Shown here in pieces: positions 14,878-64,000 of a stretch of DNA of 64,000 bases. Under the pieces are notes generated by a model. That model worked only from the letters and a program-made list of their open reading frames with translations. It made no database searches and was not told the DNA's origin. Location: assembly GCA_033439295.1 (NCBI GenBank), contig JAVTLE010000017.1, positions 1-64,000 of the forward strand. The letters are read 5' to 3'. Within the stretch, counting starts at the first letter, position 1. Every line of letters begins with the position of its first letter. The translations under genes were made by a program, and so were the position numbers. Origin of the DNA: Deuterostichococcus epilithicus (Eukaryota > Chlorophyta > Trebouxiophyceae > Prasiolales > Stichococcaceae).

Positions 14878-14908
<31 letters not shown>

Positions 14909-17952: not shown

Positions 17953-20934
17953 TTACGATGATGAGCGCCCGACGCCTTTGATCAGCACCCAGCCGCCCTC
18001 CTCGTTTGCCACCGCCACATCGTCAAACAGCTGCGCCAGCGCTTCTACTACCCTGTCCGCCTGCAATCCGGATGAGCAGCGTCTGTGTGGTGGGAAAATG
18101 TTATGCATTGCGGCACGCAGTGTGGCCGGCATGACGCAGAGATGGCTGTCTCTTGGCCGTCGAGGAATGCATGCAACTCAGCGGCGCTGGGCAACGCTTT
18201 GCTCAACAGTGGAAGCGGAAAGCCGCCCAGGCGAGGGCTCAGACCTCGAGCCCGTGTACCCGACTTGCATTCGCACCTGGTCGCCAGCCAGCACTCCAGA
18301 AACCGCCAGCACGGCCCTCGGCTTGGCATAACCGGCCAGCCGTGGCGCCAGGCCGATGAGCGGGCCAGCCAGTATGTTCGCCACCACCACGTCGAAGCGG
18401 CGGTCGACCTCCTGCAGACCCGCCGCCGCCAGCGGCTCGGGCGCCTTGCCGCACAGGACATACGCTTCGAGCTTCAGGTGCAGGCGCTGCCAGCGCCGTG
18501 AAGCACTTGGTCATTGGCATGAGTCCCCGCAATGCAGCAGACACTGCCAGTGGAGCAGCGCAAACTCGACGCAGCACAGGTTCTGGTTTGGTGTACCGCA
18601 TGAAAAGGTGCCTCGCCTCTAGGCTGCGGTCGCACAGCAGGCTGCGCAGTCGGCCCCCGGCGCCGTTGAGGTGCGCGTTGCGCTTGGCAGCAGCCACGGC
18701 GCAAGGGTCCACGTCGGTGGCGACCGCCGCGGCGGCGCCCAGCTGCAGGGCGCCGAGCGCGAGCACGCCAGAGCCGCCGCCATAGTCCATCACCGAGCAG
18801 CCCTGGAGGATCGGAAACACGCTGTAAGAGGTGGGGCCTGGCGGAGCATACCGCGCAGGCTGTGTAGAGCGACATGCATGCACAGTCGGCAGCGAGTTCG
18901 ATGCTGGAGGTACAGCCCTGTGTGCCTGCAGAACCCAATGACCGGCAGCGTTGATGGATCGGGCACCCTGTGTGGCAAAGCTGCGCGCAGTCTCACATTG
19001 CAGCAGCTCTTGGGACGCGCAGCTGCTGTTCGCATGGAGGGTGCGACAAGGAGCCCACAAGCTTGCGCATCCACCTGCAGCTGCTGGCGGCGCCGCCACA
19101 GCCAGGCCAGACACATTCGCGTCGTCGGGTGCTCGCCAGTGCCGAAGGCGATGCCGGGCTCCATGGTGACGCACACCGCGCCCGGCTGCGCAGGTGCCGT
19201 TGCCCACGAAGGTACAACCCACAAACTGCCATCGCTGTCGCCGCCGTCTGCACGAGTTGTGAAAACGGCCATCAAGTATGTCGGGGAGTACAGCGTTCGA
19301 GGGGTCTCTGGTGTTTTGCCGAAGCTGACACCGGGTGCCGGACGCTGCAACCATCAGGACCGCTGCCAGCATTCAGAACCCTGCAGTTGACACAGCTCAG
19401 AACGCCGCCAAGCCAGCACCACGTACTGCTGAGCTCGCCTGCCAATGCGGCGCCAGGATCTTCCCTGGAGACGCAGCAGGACATCACGGCAATCTCCTCA
19501 GACAGGCACCTGGGCGACAGCTGCTGCGCGCCCAGCTCCCCAGCCTGCTTCTCACTGCAGGCAATCCACCGAAGTTCGCAGCAAGCAAAAACGTCCAGGA
19601 GAGGTGCCCACCTGGCACGATGCACAGCGGCTGGTAGCTGTCCAGCACCGTCTGCTGCCAGTCCGCAGCCGGCACCGCCTCCAACTCGCACGCCGGGAGC
19701 GGGTCCAGGCCAATCTGCGGGGAAGGCGGCAAACAAGCCTGGCAAGGGACAGAGGGTGCTTGCTGGGTGTTCAATCATGTGATCAGCGCGGCCTGCTGCC
19801 AGTCTGCAGCTGGCACCGCCTCCACCCCGCATGGCAGCACAGGCTACAGCCTGATGTGCGGGCAAGCAGCAGAACCTCAAGCGGCTGCAAGCACAGCTCG
19901 CAGGCTGCTGTTTGGCCGTCCTGTGGCCAGCAGGGTCCTGCGATGAAATACTCGTGTATGCGCTTGCTTGCGCCAGGCAGCAGGCCCCAGATGGATTAGT
20001 ACGGTCCTGAGAGCACGCACTGGCAGCTGGCCCAGAAAGTATTCTGCCACTGATCCTGCCCGAACGGTGCTGCCGACATCCTCGCACACCGCCATGATGC
20101 AAGCGCTGTGCCATAGCCACCTGGCTGACGCCTGGTCGCCATGTCGACACTGCCGTGCGACGCAGCGCAGCGCTCGTTGCCCATCTGTGACGGTCACCAG
20201 ATGCGCACCTGGTGGCGCTGCTCGTGACGCGGAGCCTTCTGTACAATCTCGCGCCATCAGGAGGCTGTGGACGCTCTGAGGGCGAGCAACATGGCTGCAT
20301 GCCCGGCGTCTCGGCCTGCCAAGCGTTGCAACATCCCCGCCTGGCAAAGCCCCTAGGCACCTGCTGACAGTCTGGCTCTCGTTGCATTCGCCCGACCCCT
20401 ACGGTCCCCGCTGTGGCGCAGGTCGGTCAAGCAGATCAGGGAGTTGCACCTGCGCCGCAGCGCCTGCGAGCGCGGCCCGCGCGTCGGCGTCCGCAGCAAA
20501 GTGGGCGGTCACCGCGCAGCTGTCCCAAAGTTGCCGGTCATTCTCCGCGTACAGCTGCTGCTCGGCAACGCCCTCCCGCTGGTGCTCCGACACCCTGGAG
20601 GTGAAGTCACAGTGTGGAACGAATAGATTGCGGAAGAAAGTGAACCACAGTGCCAGGTCAGGGTGCCACGGGATGCTTGAATGCCTGCACAGGTCGGGCG
20701 GCGTGCACGCATTCGCGCTCTGCAAAGAGCGCAATGATGCTATTCTCGCAGCAGGCGCTGCGATGGAGGATTGTGCAATCGGCCTGCTAAGGCGCTCACG
20801 CCGCGGAGGCGGCGCCGTGATCCAGCAGCGCATCTGACAACGCGTCCGCAACCTCCGGCGCCAGGCCGCAAACGGTGCACTGCAGTGCGCCTCCGCCATC
20901 GGCGCCCACCGCGGCCGCCGCCGCCACGCCCATG
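17953..20934 (-). CDS. prmA: Ribosomal protein L11 methyltransferase (PrmA), SAM-dependent
   Basis: Methylates lysines of ribosomal protein L11, here presumably in plastid or mitochondrion. Exons read leftwards. 20934-about 20806 ([17 protein letters not shown]) and about 20600-20415 ([19 protein letters not shown]) form the N-terminal substrate-binding domain with the exon at 19719-19616 ([18 protein letters not shown]). The exon at about 19.25-19.05 kb has [15 protein letters not shown], the PrmA signature. About 18.8-18.6 kb carries SAM motif [19 protein letters not shown], then the acidic DVDP and [11 protein letters not shown]. 18478-18274 has [18 protein letters not shown] (the N-[IL]-L-A motif). 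18060-17953 is the last exon, ending in a stop. Motif I reads D-Y-G-G-G-S-G where DCGTGSG or DLGCGSG is usual. An intronic echo of the third exon lies at 19792-19866. The start ATG and any transit peptide are uncertain. Confidence 0.87.
19792..19866 (-). repeat. Intronic echo of a PrmA exon start
   Basis: This stretch is a diverged, same-orientation copy of 19651-19725, shifted by 141 bases. It covers the first part of the exon together with its acceptor CAG and adjoining intron bases. Read on the - strand, the echo lies in the intron just before the real exon. Confidence 0.8.
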
Positions 20935-21662
20935 GCGCCCTGCCACGCCTGCAGTGCAGCGTGGGCAGTGAAGGGCAGGCCGGACGCGACGTTCGTCGCT
21001 GATTTTCCTGATGCAGGTGGGCCAGTGCGGCGAGGCCTGCTGCGACTGTGATGCGAAGCTGGTGCAGTCAATACAAGTTGCCTGCGGGTGCCCAGCCGGG
21101 GTGTTGACCGCATGCCGCACAGCATTGTAGGGGGCCTGACGGAAGGGGCTCGCCTTCGTCTGAAGCTGCACAGAGAAGCTGGCACTGCAGGCTCCGGCGG
21201 GCTGTCCAAGTCGTTCCTGCTGCAGGTGCCGGCGGCCCCGACTGACAGACGACGCCGCGGCCCTGGCGGCATGACTGATGCGGATCCAGCGCACAATCAC
21301 CCTGACTGTCTCACATTTTCCGGGGTTCTGGGCTATCCAACCAGCCTTTCCCAGCAGGGAAGTGCGAACGTACCACATGCCGGGGGATCTTGGAGATGTT
21401 GCGCAAATTTAGCTGTGTGTGTCCCCGTCGTGCTTGCCAGCAGATGCTGCAGCTGCAAAAGTTACGCAGTGTGTGGGCGGGCGACGGCGCCGGGGCGCTT
21501 GCAAAAAAGGCCGGCATGCTCCGACTCCGAAAGGCAGCTCCGCCTACCGAAAGGTGGTGCTGCCCGAGCCCCCTACAATATATTTGATGCCTTTCCATTC
21601 GGGTTTAGGGTTTTAGGAGTCTGAAGTTCAGACTCTGAACGTTTCGGTCCATGTCGAGAAAA
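20935..21662. other. Spacer between PrmA start and rhodanese stop, with a telomere-type block
   Basis: Holds the PrmA promoter and the 3' end of the rhodanese gene (both - strand). At 21601-21618 there is a GGTTTAGGGTTTTAGG string, a slipped TTTAGGG repeat. A GGCAGCTCCGCCTACCGAAAG stretch near 21530 reads like repeat debris. No exon is supported. Confidence 0.4.
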
Positions 21663-22993
21663 TCAGTAGCGGGGCGTCTGCGGGTCCACGGAGGCGTATT
21701 CGTCTATGCCGCCGACAACGTTGCTAACGTTCGCAAACCCCACCTGCTCCGACACCAGAAAATTCGCCACCTGCATAAGGAATGCACAGCTTGCAGTGCG
21801 CCAGGAGCGGGGAAAAGACGGCGCTCATCAGGTCCGTACTCTGAGGGCGCCAAGCCGCCCATCGTATCCTTGGAAACAGATCAACGCTCAATGGCCTGCG
21901 CGCTCAGCAAATCGGGAAGCTGCAGAGAGCCATGTGAGGCGGTGGGACGGACAGCAGGCTGGAGGTTGTGCGCAGCAGTGGCCTGCAGCCAGGTGACGGA
22001 CCCCACCATGTTGGAGCGCATGCCGTGGTGGCACAGCACAATGGTGTGCTTCGCCGGGTCCAGCTGTTGCGCAATGAGCCCCGCCCACTCCTGCTGCCTG
22101 CGCCCATGTCGAGCTTGAGAATTGGAGATGCGCAGGAGCCCAGGACTGAGCAATGCCCATCAGCAGGTTGTTCCTATCCCGAAATGCACACGGTGCGTGC
22201 TGGGCCGTCGGCAACACAGGAACACACAACCAGTGCGGTAGCGGCACCGCCGCCACGACGGCGGCACCCCATGCCACGAAGCCATAGCGCTGCGTCGCGT
22301 CCTGCACAGACCAGGTTCCTGGCGAGAGCAGGCGCAATGCCGGACCGGAAGCAGCAGCAGCACCAGCAGCAGACTGCTGCTGCTGAACAGCACTGCTCTT
22401 TGTGAGGTGTCAAGCAGGATGACGTGCCTGGACATGGGCAGCAGCGTGAAGTGCGGCACCGACGCCTGCTGTGCCTCCCACTCCTCGCGCACGTCCAGCA
22501 GCTGCACCGTGTCTCGCAGGTCATCATCGTCCAAAATCTCCTTCAGCTCGTGCACGGCCATCTGCGCCACGCCACGCCTGCGTCCCCACGCACGCAGAAT
22601 GTCATCGAAGTTTTCCGATCGGCGGCTGGCTGCGCCGTGTACCGCAGGTCCTCACATTGCAAGATTTCCTTCTGCTGGTGCACGCCATCTGCGGCAGAGG
22701 TTCAGCTGCACAGCAGGTCCGCAACCTTCAGACTCTCCTTCAGCCCGTGCACACCCACCTGCACCATTGCATACATGGGTATCAGTAGGCCAGAGCTGGC
22801 AGCCTTACCGCGTGGGTTTCTGCGGCTGAACCCGGCACTACCTGTGGTGTACTCCGCATAGGCGTTGTGCCAGCGGAACCACGATGTCAAATTCGCGGTA
22901 CCGATGCAGAGTTAATCAGAGGTGGCAAAGATGCATGTGCACTGAGACTCACCACTCAGGATCCGTGCCGCGTCCTCCTGCTGTAGCGCTCAT
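21663..22993 (-). CDS. Rhodanese-like sulfurtransferase, cyanobacterial/chloroplast type
   Basis: Single rhodanese domain. The exon holding 22570-22400 carries MAVHELKEILDDDD and LLDVREEWEAQQ, with VPHFTLLPMS after it. The exon near 22.1-21.97 kb carries LDPAKHTIVLCHHGMRS; the cysteine of CHHGMRS is the active-site residue that takes the sulfur. The last exon (about 21773-21663) carries VGFANVSNVVGGIDEY and ends VDPQTPRY. This C-terminus and the CHHGMRS loop match cyanobacterial single-domain rhodaneses, so a plastid origin is likely. The proposed start at 22993 (MSATAGGRG) lies on a short first exon, and HNAYAEYTT near 22.87 kb looks like the second. Between the second exon and the domain start lie two echoes of the domain's first exon (22624-22769). 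Divergent from the F-box gene. Confidence 0.82.
22624..22769 (-). repeat. Two intronic echoes of the rhodanese domain's first exon
   Basis: Two consecutive degenerate copies (22624-22698 and 22699-22769) of the exon start at 22491-22568. All three keep an acceptor-like CAG followed by RTGG, then GTGCAC and the AAGGA(A/G) core. Offsets of the shared TCCTTC string are 129 and 69 bases. The copies do not preserve the reading frame through the module. Confidence 0.8.
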
Positions 22994-26850: not shown

Positions 26851-27643
26851 GAGGATGACTGTTGTGCATGATGTTGAGGGATGGGGATGAGGGCCGCGTG
26901 GGGGGCGGCTGTCAAGCAATATACCCGGGATGATAGTCTTGCAGGGGCCGTAAGTCTCTAAGCTCATGAGTTGGATCCTCAAAAGCTGTCCCATTTCGGC
27001 GCATTTGAACTAAGCACCGAGCCTTTGGAATTTTAGCAGCTGCAGCTGCGGCTTCTGTGGGCCTTGTGCATGACAACATGCACGCACTCGCCGCAGCGCT
27101 CCAGCAATGGCCCTGCCTCAGCTGCTGTGATGTAGGGGACGAGAGGCCTGCAGCTGTCCGGCGAGCAACGTATTTGTGTCAACGTGATATCAGGAATGTC
27201 GGTGCCGTCAGCAGTCGATATGCCGTGACATTGATGCAACAGGGCGGAGCTTGAAGACATCGAAACTTTTCCCTGCAAGAAGAAGAAAAGGAAGATGAAG
27301 AAAGAACGCCACGGCCAGGGGGTGTGTTGGTCCTGCATGTGGACCCAGTACCCAGGTATTGCAAGTCCATCATCATGCCGCCACTACTAGAATCAACAGC
27401 ATCAAAGGTTGCTGGACGGACCTGGCTGATCCGAATCCGAATGTTGGGGGCTGCGGAAAGAGTGGAATTGTTTGACTGGCTTAAATAAGAGTCCCCAGTC
27501 TGGTCCGTGGCAGCTGCCCAAATCAGTTCCATGATGCCCCTGCATCAGCTGTGCATTTCTGGTAAAATCGCTAGCATGCTAAATGCTCCAGCGCAACTAA
27601 CCCAATTTGCTGCCGCAAGTCTGCGCTGTCATTCCAGTTACCA
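26851..27643. other. Convergent spacer between F-box gene and GH5 gene
   Basis: No exon is supported. A purine-rich run (mostly A and G) lies at about 27278-27306. It should hold both 3' untranslated ends. Confidence 0.4.
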
Positions 27644-30600
27644 TCACGCCGCTTGCACCAGCACCTTTGCCGGAGCATCATTCACAAGCACGGCAGCAGG
27701 CGTGAAATCGCGGCCCCGGGCATGCACCACTGCGCCGCACGTTGGCGAGTTGGAGCCACCGTGGAACAGCAGCTGCCACTCCGCCGATGCGACCGCTGCG
27801 GGCACACAGACTCGTCAGTGATCAACCTGCTGATCTGCAACTGCTCTGTAATGTCACAGGATGCCTTATTCATAGGGTTTGGGAACGTCACAGGATGCAC
27901 TTTTGCTGCGATGCCTTCTCGTCGCGCCAGATTCCAATGCACCAGGAAGGTGGTGCACAGGAATTCGTGTGTCGTTGGAAAGCGCACTAGCAGCAGGCCA
28001 TGCACAGGCAGCTTAACTACGCATGCAGTCCTGTTCCAGAGCGGCGACCCGCATGCCACCGGCGCACTGCGGAGCGTATGGCGCAGCGCCGCACACGGTG
28101 CCTGCGCAGCTTCAGCTGTTGTCGAAGCCCATATCTTTGAAAGTGAAAATGAAAGACTGCGTACACCGAGCTGCCACTGCCCCATTGTGCGACCGGCTCG
28201 TACCGTGCAGCGTGTGGCGGGGGGCCTCGTACGATGCGGCGCAGTTCCAGCTGTTGGCAATGCCCGCGTAGGCGGGACTCGCCACGGACAGTTGCCAGGG
28301 CACTGGCACCGGCGCCTCGCCTGCACGCGCCAGGAGGTCCGGACATCACAAGCTTTCCAGCAGGAGCTTTGCAGGGATGCCCTGCGTAGGCCGGACTTGC
28401 CACGGGACAGTTGCCAGGGCACCGGCACGGCGCCTTGCCTGCGCGTGGAGAATGCAGACTGCGTACAGGTGAGCGGCCGAAAACAGCAGGGCCGGACCGG
28501 CCCTTCGAGATTCAACCTGATGGTCGCACCGCGCAGTGTTTGCCCCTTGATGCAACTGCGCGCTGTCACTGAGCACAAGCCTCCGACAGCAGTGGAGCAG
28601 CAATCGACGCACCTAGATTACGCACGCTGAAGTTGAGCGCGGCGCCGTGTGTGCCGCCGCCCTCCTCCCAGGGACTGCCCACCTGCGCATGGGTGACCGC
28701 CTCAGTGTTGCTGACGATGGTGTTACGCAGCCGGTATGCCTCGAAACGGCGCCAGTGCACCAGTGTGTGCCGGCCGCCCAGCCAACAAGGAAGGACGAGC
28801 CTTGCACGAACAATGCACCAATCTCACCTGGACGGTCACCTCGAAAGCCTCATCGCCGCGGCACGCCAGAGCCACCGGCGCCGGCGCGGCTGCCGGGCAC
28901 ATGCCGTCCGCCGCAGCCGCCGCTGGCCCGTGTGCCGCTGGAGCCTGCGCCGCCGGCTGGGACGGAGTGGTGGGCGGCGGTGGTCCGATCCCATTAGCGC
29001 AGACCCCGTTGGCACCCGGCAGCTGCACGCGCTGCGTCGGCCCGGCCGAGGGCCGCACTGTGATGGGCGGCAACGCCGGCGGGTCGTCCTGAGGCGAAAA
29101 AGAGAAAGGAGCTTAGGGAAGTGCAGAGTGCAGCTGGCATGTGCTTGCTTGCTACTTGGCACGCGCGGGTCTGCGGAAGTCCTGCCCCGCGCCTGCCAGA
29201 CCTGGCTGGAGACGCCATCTCACAGATCTGTGACCGTGCAGCAGCAAAGCGCAAAAGCTACCGCACAGGTCCAACGCTCCGGCCCTGTCACATCAGCAGA
29301 ACCCACAGCTGCACTCTGCTACGTCAGGTCCCTCACGCACACACGAAGTCAGTAGCCTCCTAAGGAGTTGTATTTCGGGGCCACAATGGCTGAAGGCGGT
29401 ACAAGCCCTGAAGCCAAAACCCTAAACTCGCACCCAGTCCAGGAACCAGGGGCGCAGGCCGATGAGACAGAGGTAGGTAACTTTGTACCACTCCAGTTCA
29501 CGCCAGTCCTCCTTCACCAGGCCGCCTGTGTCGCCGCTGTTGCGATTCCAGCACCAAAAGAACCTGCGGCGCCAGGGTGTGGTGGGTTCTTTCCGGCACA
29601 GCTGTCAGCCAGCCGCACGATGTGGTAACAGCCTCCTGACAGCGCGCAATTCGCAGACCAGGCTCAGCCGGAGTCACTGCCTGCACTGCGGCCCAATATG
29701 AAGCTGGGCACTGGAGCGAGCGGAACTGTTGCAACGAACGCACATGTGAGGTGCACCACAACCACACCTGCACTGGCACGGCTGCCTGCCACTGCCAATG
29801 CACGATGCGTTGGTGTGCACCACAAATGCCATGTCTCAAGTGTGCATGCAGCACATCTGCAAGTGATCAGGAAAGTTTTTGAATTGCGAGTCCACTGCAG
29901 CCAGAGCACACGCAACCGTACCAGTTGTCGACGGGTGCGTGTGCACCATCGTCAGCGGTGCCCTCATTACTGAGGTATGCCGCCAGGTCCAGCAGCGTTG
30001 CCATGTCGTCTTCCTGGTGAGCATGCACAACCGATGCTCGATGAGCACCAAGGGTGCTGCAAAATGCTCAAGTTCTGGCAAGCAGAGCCGCGGCAGCGCA
30101 TGCTCGCAGAGTCTCAAAAGTAGCAGGCGCTTGTGGCTTTCTTGCCCAGGCAGGTGATGCAAAAGGTGCTGCAGTTCTTGACACTCCGGTTTTTCTTCGT
30201 GTGCTCAAACATGTAGCTGGATGAAGCGCAAGGACTGACAAGGAAAGGCGCACTGACGAGAAGAATGACCCAAACTCGCCGATGGCGATGGGGAAGCGCT
30301 TGCCTGACGGCCCCACTCCTGAAGCCCATGCTTCAAGGCGTCAGTTTGCCAAGGAGCTCAAAACAGATAATGCCTCCCGGCGGAGGGAACTGCGACGGCT
30401 CCACAACCAGCAGCGCTGTCCATTTTGCTGAATCACACGGTCGCCACTGACAGCCTGACGAGCACATGCTCAAGGGTCCCTCCGTGACGCAGGTCTGTCC
30501 GCAACGCATGGTTTCAGCTTCACATGACATCGTCTCTGCATGGCGTCCTCGAGCGAATCCTTCAAGTACCCCAGGCCCACTTGCACCAGCTCACACCCTG

Positions 30601-33600
30601 GCTGGTAGCATAGCCGAAGGGAGGCGGTGACACGTGCGAACAGGTCCGGCCCCGCCCCCTGGTCGGTGCCGACAGCGCGCCGCCTCGTGCAAGCCAAACG
30701 CCGGCTGTCTTCCCCCTCTCTTTCAGCACATGACTTCAGGGTTTGATCTCCATGAAACACCTTGGCTGGTGGCGTAGCCGAAGGAGGCGGTGAGGCGCGC
30801 GAACAGGTCCGGGCCCGCCCACGCCGTCGGCGCGGACGTCACGAACGGCCCGTACACGTGCGGCGACAGCACCACCTGCGCGCCGCATGGCAGCAGGCTC
30901 ATTCGGGTACGAGCACACAGGTACGGGAATCTAATGCGCACTGTGACCGCACTGGCAGCTGCCAGCTTCCTGGGCATGGTTGCCGTGCTCAATCAGGTTC
31001 GAGCTGCCCGGCGAGGCCTGCGGCCTGCTCGGTTTTGGGCGCCCGACACTTTGTGCGACTCCTGGACGCCTCAACGTGCAAGGCGCGTCGAGTGTGTGCC
31101 CGGACAGCCAGTCGCTGGTGCGTCACATGAACAACGCGCCTGGTCCGCGGCTCATGTGCGACATGCCTCGAGTGTGTGCCCAAACAGCCAGCCACTGGTG
31201 TGTCGCGTGAAACCCTAACCCCTGCGGACTCGCCTGGTCCGCGTACGGCTTGCGCGCCAGGGCGTCAAAGAAAGGGCGCGGGTCGCTGAGCTCCAGGCCC
31301 GCGAGCAGCACCGGTTCGGACGCAAAGCCGTCGCCCCAGTTGGTGCCCAGCGCCTGCTGCCCGCCGCCCTGAGCGGAGGAGGGATGCGCCATGTCACAAG
31401 GATTCACGCCCCTGCAGAGTGTCCACCAGTTCCCAGCAGTGCCGCCTCCGCGCAGATGCCAGTTGCGCCGACGCGTGTGCCTCGCCTGGACGATCGCTTC
31501 CTCATCATGCATGTGAGCCCAGCCGCTCTTCCAAACTCCCAATGCGCAAGGTCTGGCGAATAAGGCTGTGACAGACCGATGTGGAAGACGATTCTTGGGG
31601 CCGACGCTCAACGGCTTTCGAGGTGCGACGGTGCAGCGTCACAAGGCCGCATATCTGTGCCCCTGGTACACAACCAAGGGTCGATGCAGTGCTGCCCACC
31701 TCGACCAGGAAAATGACTCCCGGCGCGACCGCCTCGATCGCGTCCATCGCCCGCAGGTGCAGGGCCATCAGGCCCGGCGTGCCGCACTGCTGCGGCTCCC
31801 ACCGCAGGCTGAAGTTGTCCGGCTCGTTCATGATGTCCACCAGCAGCCGCCCGCGCGTCGCCGGGTCCTTGGCCACCTCCGCCACCTGCGGAGGGGAAGG
31901 CTCTGCTTTGCTTTGCTGGACCTGCCGGACATAAGGTTCTGGCATCCTTGAGAACCAGCCGCCTGCGCATCGCCAGGTCCCACTCCACCTATGTCAGCTG
32001 CGGAATATGCAGGCTGCATGCCCGAGGAACTTGGTTGTGTTGTTGAGATTCGGTGTCAATCTGAGCGCCTTGGCGTCAGACAGCAGCCGCCCGTGCGTAG
32101 TGGGCGACCTCCGCTAGCGACCTCCGCCACGCAGCGCAGCGCGGACGCCCTCGGCTTGATGCAGAAGCCGTGAGCCAGAGAGGCAGCCGGGGAGGCGACG
32201 TGGGAGCAGCCATGATTGAACAGGCCCCCTGTTCCGCATCCAGCCAGTGTGGCAAACGCATGCAGCCAGGCGGTATGTGCTAAATCGTGTAAGCATTCAA
32301 ATTCCGACGCACCAGGGCTGCCCACTTGTGCGCCCAGTCCACGGGGTCGCGCAGGATGGTCTGGTCCTCCCGGATGTGGTTGTCCAGCAACACATAGAAG
32401 CCTGCAGGTTCGGGTTGGTCAATGAAGTTTCGAAAGGCGATGCTGGGTCGAGAACCTTTTCTTCAGGAGGTCTCTGTGTGGCCCTGACATGCGGAACGCA
32501 CACCTGCCCCAGCGCCTGCACGCCCGTGCGCATTGGCACGCACTATAGGAGCTCTCAAACCAGGGGGCCCTCCTATTGTCTAGACAGCCTGCTGATACGC
32601 TCCTCAGTAGCGTCTGAAACCTGACGAGCAGCAGGTGGTACGTGCCGTTTGCAGCGTAGAAGCGCGCCACCCAGACGAAGCGCTCCAGGGTGGAGGTGTC
32701 AGGCAGGTAGTCGTTGCAGGTGCCCCTGCTGTTGCCGGGCGGCGACGGCAGGGTCGGCACCAGGGTGCCGTGTGGCAGGGTCACGCCTATTACACAACAG
32801 CGACAGTCTTCATATGAAATATATGCCAGAGTGCACCTTTGTAAAATGCGCAAGCTGAACATTATGGGGCTTGGTGTCAGGATACAAGCAGTGCCAGCGG
32901 GTGCTCTCTGTAATTGCAGTGCAGAACACCCACCCGGCGGCAGCACGGACACCGCGAGCTGCGCGTCCGAGTGGCGGGCCACGTCGTGGCGGAGCTGCGA
33001 GCGTGCGCGGCAGGCACCGCCTGGGAAGCTCGTCGAGAATGCAGAGAAGAAGAGTGCTGTGTTGCAGCACTGGCTGTCCGCACTTGCCTGGCGGCAGCAC
33101 GGATGCTGCGACCTGCGGATCGGAGGGCCGGGCCACGCCGTTGGCGAAGTTGCGGGGCGTCAGGTCGTGCAGGTCGCGGAAGGAGAACGGCAATCGCACC
33201 GCGTTGAAGCCTGCATACAGCGTTGGATGACATGAAGGAGCTCGATTAGACATTTGGAGGCGTGCGGGAAAAGTAGCTCGAAGGACCTCGAAGGTGAACA
33301 GTGGCCAAGGTCGGCAAAGGTCTTGGGGTGTTTTGGCACAGGTTGACCTCGAATGGATTACGGATGTCCCAGGTGGACTCGCCAGACATGCAGATGACGC
33401 ACTAGTCTGCACTATCGTAGCCCTGCACGCTCAAGGAAGGATCTGGAGAGGTGCACTCGCCCAGCAGCTTCTGGCGCAACACCACGGCCGCAAAGTCTGT
33501 GACCAGCGGGTCGCTGCCCCACAAGCCGTCCACCATGGTGGTTCCCGTGTTGAAGCCGAACCAGTTGATGCCCTTCAGCTTCACCACGCCACCGTTTTCG

Positions 33601-34550: not shown

Positions 34551-37352
34551 ATGCCCTCCCATCTGCTACTATGCGCCATGCATGGAGCCGCTGCGCGTCT
34601 CTGCACTTGCGGTGCACTCCTCACAAGTCAGCAGAGGAGACCCTCTGATGGTTGCACGCCATTGACAGCCACCTGGAAGCAGCAATGGCGTGTCAGCAAC
34701 CCCGACAGCGGCAGGTCCTGCAGCTCGGGGCCCGCACTGCACAGCCAGCGGCGGCACAAACACGCAACAGCGGCGGTGCTCGCATGTGCAGCGGCCCCCG
34801 CAGGCCGGGCGGAGCCGCCGCAGACGAACGCGGCGCCGGCCATGGCCGTTGAGATGCGCGGCGTCTGCGTGACCGTCGGCCAGGGCGGTCAGCGCAAGCA
34901 GGTACTACTTTGTGATCCTCCCGCAGTGCATCGTCGCCATGCAGCAGCATGAACACTCCACCTGCACCATGCAAGCAAGGCGCATCAGCGCCTTCCATCA
35001 AATCACAGGGCCGCTTGCTCCCTGCAAGCAGATCCGCCCTGGAGCAGGTGTCCCTAGCCTAGAGCAGCACCTTGTGCACATGCCCATTTGCGGTGTTTGT
35101 GAGCGCCACTGATCCCTGACCGTCTGACCGCGCAGGTGCTGCAAGACTGCCATTTTGCGGTGCAGGCAAGCCAGCTGCACATGCTGCTGGGTCCAAACGG
35201 GTGCGCCTTTACATCACTAGCCCCTTGTGGTGTTCCCTGTGGCAGGGCCAAGCGGCGCCATCTGCATTCATTCCTGCCGCTGCCCCATTTGTGACGGCAG
35301 CAATGCATGTAGCCGACCCAACTGTGGAGCGCGAGCAACCACGAATTCCTGTACAAAAGTGGCGCTTCACGCATTGCTGGGACCCTCAGCTGTGGCGTCT
35401 GCCACCGACAACGGCGCTGCCGCACACGTGCTGCAGGTGCGGCAAGAGCACGCTGCTGCGCTGCGTCGGCGGGCTGCTGCCGCCGGACGAGGGGTTCGTG
35501 CGCGTCGCAGAGCCCGCGGGTTTCGTGTTCCAGAACCCCGACCACCAGGTGGTGCTTCCTACCGCCGGCGCAGACGTCGCCTTCGGCCTCGGCAGGTGCT
35601 GACGAGTCACGCTTGCTGATGCGTGTAGTCCTGCCAGGATGTTGCCGCCGGATTGGAGCGTCACCAGTGGCGCTTGCATCGCCCGCGCGCCGGGCGGCTG
35701 CCAGCAGTTGATGAGCCCTCCGACAGTGCGAACACAGAAGCTTGGATCGGGCAGCCAATCGGAAGGTACGAGTTTTGGCAAGAACGAGATCATTCTATGG
35801 ACGACTGAGCGTTGCAGATTAGGTCTGCCAACGGCAGATGTGGGGTGGTGGTGGAGCACTGTTTTGGGATCATGGGAATCCTGAAACCTGTCCGCATTTC
35901 GCAGTGCCACCTTCTGGACGCCAATGCACAGGCGGTCGTGCAACACACTGCCTTCACAAGAACTTGAACACTTATATTAGTCTGAACGTGCTATTGATCG
36001 CCTGCGCCCTGCAGGTACAACCTAGTGGAGGCGGATGCACAAATTGTCGTGGAACAACAGCCTTCTACGCAGATCAAACACCTGTGACTCTGAAAGTGTC
36101 CTTACTGTACCGCCCGCGCCGTGCAGGTACGACCTAGTGGAGGCGGACGTCCAGGCGGTGGTGGACCACTGCCTCCAGCTGGTGGGCCTCGCCGGCTTCC
36201 AGCGGCGGTCGTCGCACACGCTGTCGGGCGGCGAGCGGCAGCGCCTGGCTGTCGCCGGCGCCCTGGCGCAGGTGAGCTGGCGCTGTTGCATCCTGGTGTA
36301 CCGCCGGCATGCCCTCAAGCCAAACCGCAAGTCTGGCCGGTGGATGGGACCCTGCTGTTGGCTGGGCGCATGTGCAACTCCCTGCCAAACCGGTTTATCT
36401 AGCGGGTCTGCGCTCATGGAGCTGAGGCGACCAGCAAGAGGGCCAACGGTTTTTTTAAAGGGACACCCTTCCCAGATGATCCTGCCTGTAGCACCATCCT
36501 CCATCAGACAAAGTCTGCGTCTTGGCCGTCTCATGTTGTATTTCGATAATGCTGCTAGCCCGCTGGCGCCGACGCGCTCCCGCTGGACAACCAACCAGGT
36601 TGGTGGATCCTGGCGACTCTGCAGCAGGACCCCACACAGCCTGCCAGACATGCTGCACCCGGCGAGGGCGACAGCTACCGGCATTTATATTTATGAGTCC
36701 GATGGTACATCCAGATCCGAAGAATTCCGCAACACGTGTGCCACCCGCGCGTAGGCGCCGGCAGTGCTGCTGCTGGACGAGCTGACCAGCTTCCTTGACG
36801 AGGGCGACCAGCGGTCCGTGCTGCAGGCGGTGCGCGCAGCTGTCGATGCCGCCGGCGTCACCGCCGTTTGGGTGAGGAGCAGCGGCGAGCCACCGATGCT
36901 TGTGCATTGCTGCGGCGGCCCTGCATGCGCAGTGGTGGCCGGCAAGGCTCTGCTTCAGGCGGCACCGGTGCTGATGCGGCGAACCTGACTGCGAGTGATT
37001 TACGTTGGCCAGGCATCTGAGGGAGGTCCGCGTCTCCCGGGCTGGGCCTCTGCCATGCAGCTGCCGTTCAAGACGAGCAGAGGCTTTCAGAATGAAGTTG
37101 ACTACTGGTGTTCTGCTGTGAGCAGGGGCCCCACCAGCAGGACGAGCTGGAATGGGCAGCCCATGACGGCTTGCTCACACTGTGTTTTCACCATCTTCGT
37201 GATGTTCCCGCTGCTGTGCACAGGTGACCCACAGGCTAGACGAGCTGGAATGGGCGGACTCCGCCAGCTACATGGACGGCGGCGCCATCGCGGTGTCGGG
37301 CTCTGTTGGGCGCATCCGGCGCCACCTGCGGGGCCTGGGCGCAAGGGTGTAG
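34551..37352 (+). CDS. ABCI10: Plastid ABC transporter ATPase, ABCI10 type (ECF/CbiO-like)
   Basis: ATP-binding subunit of an energy-coupling-factor-like ABC transporter of the chloroplast envelope in plants. The first exon (34551-34901) encodes a basic, Ser/Ala-rich leader of about 97 residues (likely transit peptide), then MAVEMRGVCVTVGQ. 35136-35200 gives VLQDCHFAVQ and LLGPNG. 35437-35597 completes Walker A (GPNGCGKST across the splice) and carries FVFQNPDHQVVLPT (Q-loop) and ADVAFGLG. 36127-36270 carries YDLVEADVQAVVDH and signature TLSGGERQR. About 36760-36870 has Walker B VLLLDELTSFLDEGDQ. 37224-37352 has VTHRLDELEWADSASYMDGG (H-switch) and the stop. NPDHQVV and LLLDEL-TFLDE-type strings are specific to the ABCI10 branch. 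All ATPase motifs are intact. Introns hold echoes of the fourth and last exons. Confidence 0.92.
36001..36056 (+). repeat. Intronic echo of the ABCI10 signature exon start
   Basis: A copy of 36112-36168, 112 bases upstream. Both have GCAG then GTACrACCTAGTGGAGGCGGA. The echo keeps a full acceptor and about 40 exon bases, then loses similarity, so a splicing machine would see two near-identical acceptors. Confidence 0.92.
37113..37162 (+). repeat. Intronic echo of the last ABCI10 exon start
   Basis: A copy of 37211-37260, offset 98. Shared strings are CTGCTGTG before the acceptor and GACGAGCTGGAATGGGC inside the exon. The parent encodes the H-switch VTHRLDELEWAD. Confidence 0.88.
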
Positions 37353-37813: not shown

Positions 37814-40800
37814 CTATAAAATTGCTATCGACTTGCCGGCTGCGAAACGGGTGCCCACGCCTCCTCCACCGTTGCTGCCGCCGGCAGCCGCCAGCGCCTG
37901 TGCGGCGACACTCTCGAGCTGCGGCCAGCGCCTTTCAATGTCGTCTGGATCCCAGCCCAGCACAGCGGGCCTCTTCACCAGGAAAAGCCCCAGCTCCTGG
38001 CGGCCTTCCAGGCCCTTGGCTGCATGGCCAAGTAAGCGACTGCGTGAGGGCCGTGAGCTATATACATGCCGCATTGATGGCGGCAAACTACCAGCACCTC
38101 AGTGCGCACACAGCCTGCTGAAACAGACGACGCCTGCTCACATTTTCTCTCTGGCGCCGTGCTTCCTCAGGGCACATGCAACAAGGTCCAGCAGCGGCCC
38201 TGCCTCTCACTCTGTTGAAAGTCGATGGCTGGCTGGAAGTTTGCTGTGCTCGTCGTCGTCAGCAGCTGCGGGAAGCGCGAGCCACACACTGTCTGTGGCA
38301 TGGTCCAAAAACTGGGATTAGACTCTGAAGCGACGACACTTGCAGAAGCAACCAACCTCGTCGAAGCATGCACCACCTTAAGCCGCGGGGCAGATACAAC
38401 CAGGGCGAGCAGGTGGTAACAGTATTCTTAAGTATTCAGGACTGATGAGGGCGCTTGCTGCTAGAACGCAGCAGCTAACATCTGTTGATCCTCTTTGATG
38501 GCGCCGCTTGACTGCACCAGCAGCAGGCACTGTGACACGGCATGCATTATGGCCGCAAGAGAGCTGATGCTGTCCGGCCTATAGCAGATGCTCGTTGATC
38601 ACACTGAACAGCCTTCGGCTGCACGACCCCGAAACAAGCCATGATCTCCCACGAACGCACCTGCAGCTTGTTTGCAGGCACAGCCAGCTCTGTGCGCAGC
38701 CAGTGCACACGCGCCTCGATGTCGGTTGGCGTCAGCCATAGCACCGCAGGATTTGCCTTCAGTAATGCCGCGCGCTGGAGGCCGTTCATCTGCATCAGGC
38801 CGCCACCACAGCGAAGTCACTAGGAGACCCCAGGTACAACAGCATGTGGAGATCACCCCGACGACACTGGCATGCGTGCTGAAATGCCGCTGCATTGCTT
38901 TGAGACGAAAAGGCAGCAGGCAGGCAAGCATGATGGCTGCAAAAGGCCGCCACCTTTGGCATGGATGTCTTCATGCATGCCAGCCACGCGCTCAGGTGTT
39001 CAGTGGTCAGGTCAGCCAGCAGGCGCGGCTCAGACTTGAGCAGTGCTTGCGCCCACTCGGTGCCCTCGCTGGTTGTGAACCTTCCAAGCAAGCTTGTACG
39101 CGGATATGTCCACATTCCAAGAGGAGGCCACTGTCCCTCATGGAAGAAGGAATTACAATTCTGACTGCAGGCACCGACGAAGCCACTAGCAAGCAAGACA
39201 TACATGTGAGCATGGCGTAAAAATGAACGACCGCGCCAACCCTGCAGAACTTATGGCGGCATTTTTGGTCGGCAGCCGCATTCCGACATGGGTAATAAGT
39301 AGCCACATGCTGTAAAGATAGATGCACCGAATGGCGGCGGCTGCAACGAGGAACCTAACAGTCATTGAGCACATGAATGTTACAGCATCACAAAGCCCAA
39401 GGCTTGCACTCAGACGATACCAGTGCCAAGATGATGACACTGGGCAGACTGTTACAATGAAACTTGTAATGCTCACCGGAAACCCCGAGAACAGCAGCTC
39501 AAGCATCGACTTCAGGCTCCCCGACTGGCGCTGGGCGATGGCGGGATGCCGCCGCACTGCCCGGCAGAACAGAGTCGCGCTGATTATTCCAGCAAGATCC
39601 TCGCCGAGCAGCTGCCGCACAGCTTCTGCCGCCGCACACTCGTCGTCGTAGTCGTCTGTGTTCATGTAGTGATGGCTAAGGTTATTCTATCGTGTTCACG
39701 AGCGCAAGAACCTGCCTCTACCAAGGACTGCTGCGATGATGGCGCGCAGGCGCACCTACGTAGGGCATGCAAAACGCACAGGCCGCACTTGCACGGGCGC
39801 ACTGGTTCCTCATCCGCGCGCATGTTGAAGGCAAGGCAATGCATCGGCGGCGGTCCAGCCTTTGCCGCCGCACCCATGTTGGCGAAAATGTTGTACTGTT
39901 TGATGGCGGCGCAGGCGGCGTAGGCGAACTCGGATGTGGAGAATCGCGTGGTCAAGCTGTACTCCATCCTGTTGCAGATGTGACACATGTCAAAAGTGCA
40001 TTGAAGATCAATCAAGGCGCGTATTGGCAGACTCGGGCAGACTCGCTCATGCTGGCAGGGTACAGCGATCTATCTGTCAGCCTGCACCCCAAGCATGAAA
40101 CTTTCGGCAGGTGAGCATCAGTCTACGTGCGGGCCCAATCGCGCGCCCAGCGTGCGAGGGTGATGGACCATCTCACCTCATACACGACATGACACATGTG
40201 CCTGGGTGCCAGGGTGCATATGCCTCACAGATATCGTAGACTGCGATCAGCTGCTCCTTATCGATGATCGTCACCGCAAAGCCCCCGGCCGGAAGAAGCC
40301 CTGCTTGGGCCCTGTGACACTGCAGCGGCTGCCCAAATAAGACCATGACAGCGGTGCGGCTGGCGTCCGGGAGCGGGCTCGACGGGCTTGACGGCAACGC
40401 AGGCAGCGTCAGCTGCCTGCGCCGCGGACTCGGATGTGGGGAATCGCGTGGTCAAGCCGTACTCCATCCTGTTGCGGACGTGACACTAGGTGTCAAAATA
40501 TTTGAGGATCAACCCCACACCAAGGCATGTGCCGGCGGTTTCGGGCGGGCTTCACTATCCTAGCAGGGCTATCGGTGTGTCAGCCTGCAAATTTGGCCTG
40601 TAACCCTCTGCGTGTAAGCATCCGTGTACTTGCGGGGCCAGTCGCGTGCCCAGCGTGCGAGATTGGATCATCTCACCCTGGTGCGCCATGGGTCTCGCAG
40701 ATTTCGACGACTGCGTCCAGGTGCTCTCTGTCGATGATCGACACCAGAAAGCCCGGAAGCCAGACGAGCGGGCGCTGTGACACCGCAGCGGCTACCCGCA

Positions 40801-46264: not shown

Positions 46265-46299
<35 letters not shown>

Positions 46300-49200
46300 C
46301 AACAGGAGCAGCAGCAGGAGCAGCAGCAACAGGCGGAAGTTCTCGGGCAGCAGGAAGCAGGCACGGGCGGAGCCGTGGAGCCCGCGGCCAAGCGGCAGCG
46401 GCTGGATGATGCTGTTGACAGTCCCATTGCCAATAGCGCTCATGCTGCTGCTGCTGCTGCTGCCTCAGACTCGGCAGCGACGGGCGCAGATGATGCCCCG
46501 GCCGCCAGCCACTGCGCGCTGATGGAGCACAACAGAAGCACGGCAGCGGCGCCCCCTGCAAAGAGTGCAGCCACGCCGGCGGACCAGTCATCGTCCCCGA
46601 CAGCAATCGCAGCTGCAGGCGGCGTACCAGCCGTTGCCGGCGACCCCGCCGCAGCCGCGCGGGACGCCGACGCGCAGCAGCGGCGGCTGTTTGACATCCG
46701 GGCGCAGGCGGACGCGGGCGCTGATGCGCAGGACTCGAAGCTGCGGCCGGCGGAGAAGCGGCGCATCGACTTCCGCGGCAAGACGTACCTGGCGCCGCTC
46801 ACCACCGTCGGCAACCTGCCCTTCAGGTGTTACATTTGCCTGCCCGGCTTTTGGGTAAAGAGGGCTTGTCTATGATCACCACTGTCGGCAAATTGCCCTT
46901 CGGGTGCGCCCTTCCTGAGGGCAGTGAAAGGGACAGTCTAGTCTTGTGCGGCGGCATCTGTCTGGCTGTCAGGCCGCTTGTAGAGCACCACTCTGGAGCC
47001 GTCATTGCAAACCCTGCTTGCCCAATCCGTGCGGCCAGGATGGATCCAGCAGCCATGGACCACTTAGCCGTGTCGGCAATGTGCAGCTCGAGGCGGGCAC
47101 TGTCACTGTCCTGCATACTTGCTCTGGTCGTGCGTGCCAGCGCTGTGCGAGACACGTGCGTATCACCCTGCAACATGCAGTCCTTAGTTGCACAGCAAGC
47201 CACCAGCTCGTGAGGATTTCCAGGAGGAGGGCTGCTGCTGATCCGGGAATCCGCACCATCTTCTCCCCTCCATGCCCGCAGACGCGTGTGCAAGGGGCTG
47301 GGCGTCGACATCACCTGCGGCGAGATGGCTATGGCGACCAATATCATACAGGGCCAGGGCTCCGAGTGGGCGCTGCTGCGGCGCCACCCGTCCGAGGACG
47401 TTTTCGGCGTGCAGGCGCGCAAGTTCTGGCACACACGCCCAGGCGCCACACTGTCGAGCCAGTCAGGACGCTGGCATCCTGCAGCTGTGGTGCTCTGCTC
47501 CGCGTCTTGGAGGTCAAAAACTGCAGACACGGACGCCTGACAGTGACTTGTATAGAGTCGGCCACCGGATAAGTGAGAGACAGAGGCTCCTGCGCCTCAT
47601 GCGCATGCAGATATGCGGCGGCTTTCCGGACGCTGTGGCGCGCTGCTGTCAGCTGCTGGATGAGCACATCAGCGTCGACTTTGTGGTGCGTGTCAGAGGA
47701 CGAGGGTGAGGAGGCCTGCAATGCCGCCGTCGGTGGCGCCCGCCGATGGCAGGCGGCGCACTGCCTGACCACTGCCCGGCAGTGGTTCTGGTCTGATCGG
47801 GTGCTACGATGAGGACGCAACTGGGGCTGATTGCAGCCTGCGCATGCTGATGGCCTTGCCGAGTCTGGCACCCGCATGTCCACCACTGGTGCTACAAAGC
47901 TGGGCAAGTCAGGATTTGTGCGCACGCAGGACATCAACATGGGGTGCCCCATCGATCTGGTGTGCAACAGGTGACTCGCAGCATGCCTTGCCTGATCGCT
48001 CTTTTCCTTGCAACAGTATGCTGCGCGAGTTGACAGCTTTCAAAGCTCGGAGCAGTGCCTGGGAGCGGGGCCATCAAGTGGGAGTGCACCTGTTGCTGGC
48101 AGAGGCGGCGGCTCGGCAATGCTGCTGAAGCCGCAGAAGATGGGTGAGGTGGTGAAGGCGGCGGTGGGCGTCCTGTCATGCCCGCTCACATTCAAGCTGC
48201 GCAAGGTAAGCCCAGGTTCTGGAGACCGGCGGTGCTGGGTCTAACCTGCTTTCCCGGACTGGTGCAGACGGATGACTCGTGCTGTCCTGCCCGCGCACTT
48301 TCAAGCTGCGCAGGGTGCAGTCTCGAAATCGCTGTGCCGATGGGCTGTTCTCGTGGGTTGCTCTCCAGCAGCGGCCAGGCGCTTATCTCCATCCTGCAGG
48401 CGTCCAGCTGCGGCTGTGCAGCCGCAGGAGCAACACCGGACAGCGAACTAGCCTCCTGCGCCGCCTGTTGTCCAAGGGGTTGGTCCATCATTCACCCTGT
48501 TCCCTCTGCAACCCGCAGGGGTACTATGACGGCAAAGATGTGGCGCACAACCTCATCCCAAAGGCGGCTAGCTGGGGCGCCGCCGCCGTCACGCTGCACG
48601 GCCGCACCCGCCAGCAGCGGTGCGGCCCCCCTGCTGCAAGATACGCCATGAGATATCCTGCTTGCAGCAGACTCGGATGTGCTGCATGAGGGGATGCGTG
48701 TGCGCCGATGCCCTGGAGAGCAGTCTCGTCCCCACCGTGCGGCTGCGGGCGACACGCCTGACACCTGTGCCGCGCTATGCCGCAACGCCTTGCACAGGCA
48801 TGTCAACACCGTATTGCTGTGCGGTCCCTTTGCGAGCCAGCTGTGCAGGTGCGGACTGGGGCACAGCTGCACATCAGGATAGACGGCGTGCAATCATGGA
48901 CGGGCTCCACCAGTGTCATGGAGGACTGTACTCGGCTGTAGGTACTCGAAGCTGGCGGACTGGGAATATGTGCAGCGATGCGCCTCTGCAGTCCCCGAGG
49001 TGTGCGTCGGCCGTCTCTACCCTGAGCTTGCATTCCATTCCATGACTGTTCTGGCTATTCCTCGACAGTGCCTGGCAATGCCAACAGCCGCCCGGCAGTC
49101 GCAGTCGAGGACCTGGTTCATAAACGCCGCTATGGCATACAAGCGCCATCCACTCAAATGCCCGAAGCATCCTTGGCTCCCTCTGCAGGGCTTCCAGATG

Positions 49201-50953
49201 CTCGGCAATGGCGACGTGTACAACTTCGAGCAGTGGGGCCGGCTGCTGGATGGCTCGCGGCTGGCGAGCCTCATGGTCGGCCGTGCCGCGCTTGTCAAGC
49301 CCTGGCTGTTCACCGAAATCAAGGTGCGGTCTGTGTTAGATCCTGACTGCTTCGCCGAGATCTGGGTTGACTGCGCTGCGGGATTGTGTCTGTGCACGGC
49401 CGCCGGGAGCCCCGGCACTGGGACGCCTCCGTGGCAACCAGCTGAACGAGCTGACCGGCTGACCCGCGCTCATGTCCTGACAGACTGACTTCGCCTGTGT
49501 CTCGCCATCTGCATTCTCAGCGGGGCAGCCCTGCAGACGAGCGCCTGGACCCGGCGAAGCTCACTGGGACAGCTGTGAAGGCAAGCAATTGGACCTGCTG
49601 AAGGACTTCGCCTGATGGCCGGTAGGGTTTTAGGCTTTACTAGCAGCACCCTTGCCTTGCTGACATCGCCGCTTTCCTATGGTATTCGCCAGGAGCGCCG
49701 GCACTGGGACATCTCTGCGGGCGAGCGGTTGGACCTGCTGAAGGACTTTTGCGCCTACGGCCTCACACACTGGGGATCCGACTCGAAGGGCGTGGAGACG
49801 ACGCGGTGGGTTTTTGTCTGGAACCCACGTCCGTTGCACGCTGTGCGATGCGTCTGTGGGATTGGCCACACGCGCTGGACATTGGGACTGAGTGGTGAGG
49901 AGTGGCCTGGAACATGTGCACTGCTGCGCATGTCTGCGTTGGCATGTGTGTTTGCCGCCGTGTTGGCCAGGGACGCGGCGGCATTGCTGCGTGACCAGCA
50001 GTGCTGAAAGGCCGAGCTTGACCTGAGCGCTGTGGTTTCCTGGGGTTTCCTGATTTTCAGCCCGCATTTCTGGAAAGCCTGCCAAACCCTGAAATGCGGG
50101 CTGGTCCATGCAAAGCTGTGGATGCCGCACTTAGGGTTCTGCTCTTCTGCAAGGTTGGTGCTACAAGCAGTCTGCGTCACGCATCGGGATATAGCGGTGC
50201 AGGACGGGCGCCCACTCCAGTGAGAATCCGCCTCTGAAAGCCGAGCGAATCCTCCACGAGTCCTGTAGCCGGTCTTTCGCCCCACAAACCGATTCATTCG
50301 TGCACTCGCAGGCGCTTCCTGCTGGAGTGGCTGTCCTTCCTGCACCGCTACATCCCTGTGGGGCTGCTGGAAGCAGGATGCGAGGCGGCGCACCTTAACT
50401 GGCGCAACCCTGGCTTCCGTGGCCGCTCGCAGCTGGAGGGGCTGCTGGGCTCCGACGACCCTCGCGACTGGGTGGCCATCTCCGAGATGCTGCTGGGGCC
50501 GCCGCCGGCGGGGTTCATCTTTGCGCCCAAGCACAGGGCACAGGTGGGGAGCCTGGTGCAATGCCGCCAGACAATGGCACCTCGTGAGACCGCGCAAATG
50601 CCGCCCTGCCTCATCTTTGCGCCCCAGCACAGTCAGGCGAACTGGAAGGTTTGACGTCATGGTCCAGTGTAGCAGCGCGCTGCAGGGTTTAAAGACCAGC
50701 TGACCTCACAGGACGGGGACGGGGCGATGGCGATGCACTGCGATGCCTCGGCTCAAACCATCTCTTCGGAAACCTGATGCACTGGATCAGAGATGGCTGA
50801 CCACATGGCCACTTGAAGCATGGCGCACTGTGCACGATCAGGAGTGATTGGCTCAGGTGGATCAATTTCCTGCTACCGTGTCTGCAGGCGCACGCCAAGT
50901 CTGAGCAGGACATGGCGCTTGCCGTTGAGGGCCGCGGCCCCATCAAGGGCTGA
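44292..50953 (+). CDS. DUS3: tRNA-dihydrouridine(47) synthase DUS3 with CCCH zinc fingers
   Basis: FMN enzyme that reduces uridine 47 in the variable loop of tRNAs. Exon 1 from 44292 is basic at its end ([10 protein letters not shown]). About 44.78-44.95 kb encodes a CCCH finger [19 protein letters not shown] and half of a second, completed across the splice at 45.2 kb ([13 protein letters not shown]). 45.2-45.94 kb is a long Ala/Gly/Pro-rich low-complexity stretch with one unknown base at 45345. 46.16-46.83 kb holds a polyglutamine run, then [22 protein letters not shown], the start of the Dus barrel. Then [16 protein letters not shown] (47.3 kb), NMGCPIDLV with the catalytic Cys (47.94 kb), [12 protein letters not shown] (48.2 kb), [16 protein letters not shown] (48.6 kb), [10 protein letters not shown] (48.95 kb), [11 protein letters not shown] and [15 protein letters not shown] (49.2-49.3 kb), [16 protein letters not shown] (49.7 kb) and [10 protein letters not shown] (50.5 kb). 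The last exon, 50888-50953, ends GRGPIKG. Disordered regions are longer than in yeast or plant DUS3. Four introns contain exon echoes. Confidence 0.9.
46247..46338 (+). repeat. CAG-rich polyglutamine tract inside DUS3
   Basis: A run of CAG/CAA with a few GAG codons encodes about 30 residues, mostly glutamine, in the disordered segment between the zinc fingers and the catalytic barrel. Confidence 0.85.
46875..46910 (+). repeat. Intronic echo of a DUS3 exon end with donor
   Basis: A copy of 46798-46833, offset 77: TCACCACyGTCGGCAA then TGCCCTTC and a GGTG donor. Parent codes TTVGNLPFR; the echo would read TTVGKLPFG. It lies just after the real donor. Confidence 0.92.
48255..48317 (+). repeat. 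Intronic echo of a DUS3 exon end with donor
   Basis: A copy of about 48146-48208, offset 109. TTCAAGCTGCGCA is identical and TGTCATGCCCGCTCAC parallels TGTCCTGCCCGCGCAC. A donor-like GGTG follows in both. Confidence 0.88.
49541..49612 (+). repeat. Intronic echo of a DUS3 exon start
   Basis: A copy of 49681-49752, offset exactly 140, with an identical 20-base core at 49589-49608 and 49729-49748. It lies in the intron before its parent, which encodes [16 protein letters not shown]. Confidence 0.93.
50608..50640 (+). repeat. Intronic echo of a DUS3 exon end
   Basis: A copy of 50512-50544, offset 96. CATCTTTGCGCC and AGCACAG are shared. Parent codes [11 protein letters not shown]; the echo would read CLIFAPQHS. 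Confidence 0.88.

Positions 50954-52010: not shown

Positions 52011-64000
<11,990 letters not shown>

Follow-up and report, generated by a model that had tools for sequence, protein, structure and literature searches.

The window analysed here, 64 kb long, lies at the start of contig 15 of the genome of the green alga Deuterostichococcus epilithicus (46.8 Mb in 21 contigs). Seven of its predicted proteins or protein parts are related by Pfam to CAF1 nuclease, a sugar transporter, PrmA, GH5, an ABC transporter, Dus and IleRS; a rhodanese match is slightly under the cut-off. Two neighbouring genes on the minus strand, 37814-39967 and 41510-43710, are predicted to encode similar proteins, which start with MEYSLTTRFSTSE and MEYGLTTRFSTSE, and are probably a tandem gene pair. 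A local duplication is also present at 39924-40754, with offsets of 463-503 and pieces that are 74-92% identical. The exons of IleRS were read by eye, and this hand-made model was then used as the seed for a small self-trained gene finder that provided all gene models outside IleRS. Within IleRS, which belongs to its training set, the gene finder predicted 23 exons and placed 19 of the 22 hand-read exons exactly, with hand-read exon 7 too short in this benchmark. The window itself was chosen for the pattern described below; the genome sample consists of 20 arbitrary 10-kb stretches (16 stretches plus L025-L028). GC-AG introns look frequent: 46 of 527 predicted introns in the window and the genome samples are of this type despite a scoring penalty, and the three in IleRS (53183, 55679, 58817) give joins that agree with relatives. 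CCCTAAA repeats are found at the ends of several of the contigs listed.

Some introns of the window carry diverged copies, here called echoes, of the edge of the neighbouring exon (Table 1). An echo comprises roughly 30-95 nt of exon edge together with the splice site, and it reaches at most some 8-12 nt into the intron. With the self-trained models, 23 adjacent matches were found at E<0.005 in 22 places, one of which matches both neighbours. They are 26-92 nt long when aligned and 68-92% identical to their parents, and they have the same orientation as the parent in genes on both strands, as had been claimed from the first inspection. The echo at 22629 also resembles the predicted upstream exon 22713-22762 (E 3e-4), which may itself be an echo.

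Table 1. Echoes in the window and their parent exon sequences (identity as identical over aligned positions)
Echo	Strand	Parent	Gene	Identity	E	Remarks
19407..19475	-	19101-19173	PrmA	52/66	0.005	exon interior; weak
19784..19849	-	19643-19708	rhodanese/PrmA	51/66	5e-9	downstream exon start
22629..22696	-	22501-22569		55/68	2e-10	three-copy family D3
28073..28130	-	28209-28265	GH5	43/57	5e-6	upstream exon end
28355..28438	-	28245-28320	GH5	69/75	7e-12	downstream exon start
30599..30691	-	30763-30856	GH5	74/92	7e-13	upstream exon end; intronic flanks of echo and parent look unrelated in alignment
32081..32130	-	31841-31885	GH5	38/45	1e-4	farther echo; nearer echo of same edge in this intron, spacing 112, 133
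35904..35954 (approximate)	+		ABC transporter			second, farther echo of same exon start as 36015; spacing 112, then 111
36015..36063	+	36127-36174	ABC transporter	37/48	7e-5	nearer echo
37130..37157	+	37228-37255	ABC transporter	24/28	4e-4	
46845..46901	+	46767-46824	DUS3	40/57	0.003	exon end; weak
48260..48312	+	48150-48203	DUS3	42/53	7e-7	exon end; same intron as 48378
48378..48424	+	48542-48588		32/47	0.003	start region of next exon; weak
49562..49620	+	49702-49762	DUS3	50/58	1e-8	more echoes upstream in this intron
50600..50632	+	50504-50536		27/33	4e-4	exon end
53839..53896	+	53981-54036	IleRS	43/56	2e-5	
54359..54384	+	54474-54500	IleRS	24/26	0.001	
55917..55998	+	56076-56157	IleRS		8e-5	added by hand-made model
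57039..57071	+	56954-56986	IleRS	29/33	2e-5	exon end; one of few with intronic flank also like parent's (flank p 0.004)
58005..58091	+	58230-58316	IleRS	63/87	9e-10	
59248..59308	+	59374-59431	IleRS		7.5e-8	added by hand-made model
60286..60311	+	60204-60229	IleRS	23/26	3e-4	exon end
61834..61878	+	61969-62012	IleRS	32/44	0.004	weak
62259..62323	+	62393-62454	IleRS	46/62	9e-6	
63749..63814	+	63464-63529	IleRS	45/66	3e-5	farther echo, exon end; nearer echo of same edge in between, spacing 141, 144

IleRS is the case that was checked by hand. Its exons, from 53112 to 63529, do join in frame without the echoes, as the earlier note had stated; the hand model has 22 of them in this interval, and the note gave 25. 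Among the best 120 of 7996 matches, a 1082-aa protein of JGI origin comes first (77%); Trebouxia, Chlorella ohadii, Micractinium and Myrmecia, which we take to be trebouxiophytes, have proteins that match at 67-68%, so that IleRS marks the source as a green alga. Comparison with four algal relatives reveals one shared addition only, of some 15 residues where exons 7 and 8 join. Its source is not the echo at 55917, although that echo lies in the intron concerned; a longer exon 7, ending at the GC donor 55679, accounts for it. One relative alone (P0003) has 7 extra residues at the exon 6/7 junction, where no echo was found, and the remaining gaps are of 1-2 residues. The echo at 59248 was wrongly called an exon by the gene finder, with no matching addition in the four relatives; such read-through means that the gene finder can hide echoes, and it may also make the opposite error. 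When each IleRS intron was compared with all 22 exons, the best-matching exon was a neighbour in 10 of 21 introns (1.9 expected, binomial p 5e-6). At E<0.02 and with the hand model, matches were obtained for 10 of 42 adjacent pairs, for 8 of 420 non-adjacent pairs, which is the chance level, and for none of 42 pairs with the neighbour reverse-complemented. IleRS introns also contain a telomere-type repeat (CCCTAAA, 4.4 copies, 63258-63289) and a perfect 31-nt direct repeat (57180-57210 and 57236-57266, 25 nt between the copies).

The presence of exon-edge echoes in neighbouring introns is confirmed, and it extends beyond the window. In an adjacency test on 436 introns from the window and 16 of the arbitrary stretches, 28 of 841 adjacent intron-exon pairs matched at E<1e-4, versus none of 5232 other-gene pairs, none of 3216 same-gene pairs lying one to five exons further off, and one of the 841 adjacent pairs when the exon was reverse-complemented. 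Adjacent similarity thus exceeds that of random pairs, as the earlier note had anticipated. At E<0.005, the window and all 20 stretches together gave 47 matches among 1017 adjacent pairs, and these fall in 42 of 527 introns; provided that the E-values are sound, about 5 of the matches would arise by chance. The stretches outside the window contribute 24 matching pairs out of 779 at this threshold and 15 at E<1e-4. The genome-wide habit suggested before is recovered in the arbitrary stretches, where 21 of 403 introns bear echoes, though unevenly. The distribution among loci is patchy: none of the 91 introns of L025-L028 and none of the 36 introns in positions 1-18000 of the window has an echo, where intron length would lead one to expect 4.8 and 2.2, respectively. 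Direct repeats at offsets of 30-330 number 33 in the 64-kb window and 60 in the 160 kb of 16 stretches; control bins at far offsets are mostly near empty, and the samples also hold 13 pairs at 1030-1530 and 5 at 7000-7500. In one of the stretches (L010), the end of an exon and about 11 nt of intron are repeated (9767-9807 and 9894-9934, 95% identity, 86 nt apart), and each copy was called an exon by the gene finder.

The eighteen cases first described, 16-95 nt long, 70-290 nt from the parent and starting or ending at splice sites, proved essentially right. In the window and 16 stretches, 39 of the 47 matches end within 12 nt of the junction; the other eight are not anchored in this way and include the only perfect match (31/31 nt, in L021). 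Echoes of exon starts (31) outnumber those of exon ends (16). A typical copy lies about 70-190 nt from the true junction, with second copies at about twice that distance: for the 63 echoes at E<0.01, the junction-to-junction distance is 69-189 in 49 and 223-321 in 14, and none falls at 190-222. At least two echoes of one edge are present in twelve introns (each at E<0.03 and at least one at E<0.005), the chance level at E<0.03 being 23 matches in 844 non-adjacent pairs. Successive spacings in these arrays are correlated (r 0.77, p 0.004 for 11 of the 12, leaving out one array with a weak second hit and ignoring extra hits in two arrays; p 0.023 for all 12 as found). The exon-interior ends of sister echoes also differ by a median of 12 nt, versus 20 nt by chance (p 0.041). 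In 15 sister pairs, one of them from an array outside the twelve, both echoes differ from the exon at 56 positions (41 expected) and show the identical change 25 times (about 16 expected), 13 of these 25 at third codon positions. From these counts, sister echoes derive largely separately from the exon. Echoes go with longer introns, as had been proposed, although long introns also ease detection: 39 of the 42 echo-bearing introns are at least 250 nt long, their median is 380 nt against 225 nt for introns without echo, and echoes occur in 3 of 311 introns below 250 nt and in 20 of 60 at 350-500 nt. When the offset is subtracted from the length of echo-bearing introns, the median is 254 nt, compared with 225 nt for non-echo introns.

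Homology is limited to the exon edge plus roughly 8 nt of intron, with no detectable similarity beyond. Simulated decay at the echoes' own divergence gave a median flank score of 113, with 98% above 57, whereas the observed scores have a median of 41.5 and only 13% of 38 exceed 57 (5/38), mainly near the junction. Flanks with the junction included show weak similarity (Fisher p 0.0024). With the 8 junction-proximal nucleotides left out, 36 parent-echo spacer pairs score no differently from unrelated introns (KS p 0.69, 4 at p<0.05), and the same holds for 32 spacer pairs within arrays (1 at p<0.05). Copy pairs at offsets of 60-350, counted over 128 kb of intronic and 64 kb of exonic sequence, comprise 51 exon-intron, 15 exon-exon, 6 intron-intron and 4 intergenic pairs; two of the six intron-intron pairs (35904 and L013:406) are echo-echo pairs by their place in arrays. 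Two spacers searched genome-wide match themselves only. As regards introners or transposable elements, 31 spacers compared with 264 kb gave two scores above 105 and a median of 81, versus 77 for shuffled sequence. As regards local copying, 2 of 32 spacers had direct and none inverted copies, compared with 4 and 2 of 150 controls. An origin of the echoes from spliced mRNA is unconvincing: resemblance of an echo flank to the exon on the far side of the intron exceeds the 95% control in only 3 of 23 and 1 of 15 cases.

Splice sites are intact in 12 of 31 echo acceptors and 11 of 16 echo donors. Echo donors that keep GT or GC have a +3 to +6 score of 0.37, compared with 1.39 for true donors and -1.72 for random GT (p 5e-5, n=13), and acceptors that keep AG are likewise signal-like (p 9e-4, n=13). 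At +3 to +6, however, echo and parent donors are no more alike (identity 0.42) than mismatched pairs (0.44). Since the surviving sites are signal-like but the donors are unlike those of the parent, echo and exon seem each to have had a working splice site of their own, as judged from sequence. A branch-point motif precedes 30% of 23 echoes, 36% of 437 true acceptors and 18% of 437 random points, in what is a weak test. At the inner end of echoes, acceptors are found in 38% versus 24% in controls (n=16) and donors in 6% versus 25% (n=31). The suggestion that echoes offer alternative exons was therefore not sustained: as a mini-exon, or a cassette or mutually exclusive exon, an echo would lack a clear inner splice site, and its mismatches and indels are unlike those of coding sequence.

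Mismatch frequencies at codon positions 1, 2 and 3 are 0.185, 0.187 and 0.258, and 46 of 53 indels are not multiples of three. The echoes contain 6 stops in 765 codons, with 9.9 expected from random placement (sd 2.6). Synonymous changes number 185 versus 136 expected (sd 8), as would be seen if the exon itself accumulates silent changes. This excess is small, and the parent-echo pairs are therefore taken as not ancient; a search for paralogues that could date them, made for three loci, returned only the loci themselves. Changes from strong to weak bases (229/1716) and from weak to strong (154/767) give an equilibrium G+C of about 0.60, where introns of the window have 0.589. Mismatches are evenly spread along the echoes (mean z 0.03, n=35); patchy identity was looked for in these 35 and not seen, and 5 of the 47 echoes have about 90% identity or more. 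Echoes thus appear to drift in a neutral-looking manner, like ordinary intron DNA.

Several explanations can be weighed against these results. An artefact of gene prediction, composition or assembly is very improbable. It is true that models outside IleRS are self-trained, that one IleRS echo was miscalled as an exon, and that one reverse-complemented pair and about five chance matches belong to the counts given above; however, the IleRS model is hand-made and checked against relatives, and the other-gene and non-adjacent controls are at chance. Duplication in the assembly, which the earlier note had named as able to refute the pattern, is countered by divergence: almost every echo departs in sequence from its parent and is flanked by other DNA. 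Echoes could also be functional, as decoy or alternative splice sites under selection. The signal content of the surviving sites and the correlated spacing would fit, but the neutral-looking decay in codon position, indels and base composition, the partial survival of echo acceptors and donors, and the patchiness among loci make this quite improbable. The earlier note read the pattern as plain tandem duplication, in which a unit spanning the border is copied and one of the copies decays. What stands of it is that the copies are direct, local, mostly junction-anchored and spaced like units, and five of the 38 flanks score as it would predict. Its intronic half fails beyond 8 nt: almost all flanks should have stayed recognizable under simulation, flanks are unrelated even for several echoes with about 90% identity, donor positions +3 to +6 are at the control level, and intron-intron copies are few next to exon-intron copies despite twice as much intron sequence. 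We consider it improbable, though less so than function.

Repair of a staggered break at the exon edge, ranked second, would account for more of this. The break would be filled in, so that the edge is duplicated, and unrelated DNA would be joined between the copies; the exon would then be spliced at a new site within the filler, while the old site would stay with the echo. A spacer unrelated to the intron edge, signal-like splice sites on both copies with different donors, and introns that are longer by roughly the offset are all in line with it, and the Daphnia model of intron gain has direct repeats flanking inserted DNA (PMC3443670). Yet the correlated spacing and the shared inner ends of sister echoes are left unexplained, the two spacers searched genome-wide match only themselves, and creating an acceptor should take more signals than creating a donor, although echoes of exon starts are the commoner kind. 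On balance this repair route is unlikely, though it is the chief competitor of the reading ranked first. The reading that we rank first, tentatively and at somewhat less than even chances, is local duplication of edge-plus-spacer units whose exon part is written or rewritten from the exon. We infer that introns would be lengthened by whole units of exon edge plus spacer, about 80-160 nt each, and that the conserved exon would act as master for the exon part of each unit, which would be copied from it at the outset or overwritten later, whatever happened to the spacer. The route would be gene conversion or template switching on a DNA or RNA template, after which the echo would drift as ordinary intron DNA. 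This reading accords with the arrays, with the largely separate derivation of sister echoes from the exon and with spacers that show no homology to one another. Pasting of the exon edge alone was rejected, since the gain in intron length would then fall short of the offset. Rewriting from the exon has its own difficulties. Conversion should leave patchy identity and many near-identical echoes, contrary to what is seen; saturated spacers should lose splice signals, whereas the surviving GT/GC and AG sites are signal-like; positions changed in both sister echoes exceed the number under independence; and there are only 12 arrays, in a setting where long introns make echoes easier to detect. Moreover, we know of no evidence that ectopic conversion between such short repeats is a strong process.

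Hellsten 2011 and Gao & Lynch 2009 are reportedly cited in connection with intron gain by tandem duplication. This mode of gain is established (PMC3443670; PMC4974935), and the echoes resemble its AGGT form in being local direct duplications beside splice sites in protein genes. They differ in that they go with longer, existing introns and that their intronic half is not homologous. The earlier proposal that echoes might create introns by the AGGT route found no match: that geometry, in which the intron opens with a copy of the first bases of the next exon and the offset is as long as the intron, occurs exactly in 0 of 47 cases, and the nearest one (22578-22711) has an offset of 127 for an intron of 134 nt. 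In the potato RdRp gene (PMC4974935), the duplication likewise crosses an intron-exon border and copies the exon start and acceptor, but the copied segment there also takes in the branch site and polypyrimidine tract, and ten nucleotides differ; in the alga, homology stops near the junction, 21 of 403 introns are concerned and some echoes form arrays. The layout of repeat, insert and repeat described for intron gain at double-strand breaks in Daphnia is the same (PMC3443670), whereas the repeats of the alga are 30-95 nt long, lie on existing exon edges and are in some cases at correlated spacing. For stwintrons, PMC7138796 suggests that a donor element became duplicated within an intron; nested excision is demonstrated there, while the echoes of the alga are known from DNA only and their sites are decaying. 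Among the papers listed in our literature search, mostly non-subscription ones, none describes the echo pattern in its title or the opening of its abstract, which is weak evidence of absence.

Intron lengthening and the gain of spare splice sites are poorly documented because readable intermediates are scarce. This genome holds many such intermediates at different stages of decay, and they are linked to intron length. It is possible, but somewhat unlikely, that a process repeatedly writes exon edges and splice sites into neighbouring introns at a locus-specific spacing, with the exon (DNA or pre-mRNA) as template; introns would then grow in units and fill with exon relics. If the exon-templated reading is true, it would provide a route for exon sequence into introns that is absent from the tandem-duplication accounts consulted. 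If the repair reading is true, intron lengthening would be tied to break repair. Under either reading, echoes can be mistaken for exons by gene finders, as one was in IleRS.
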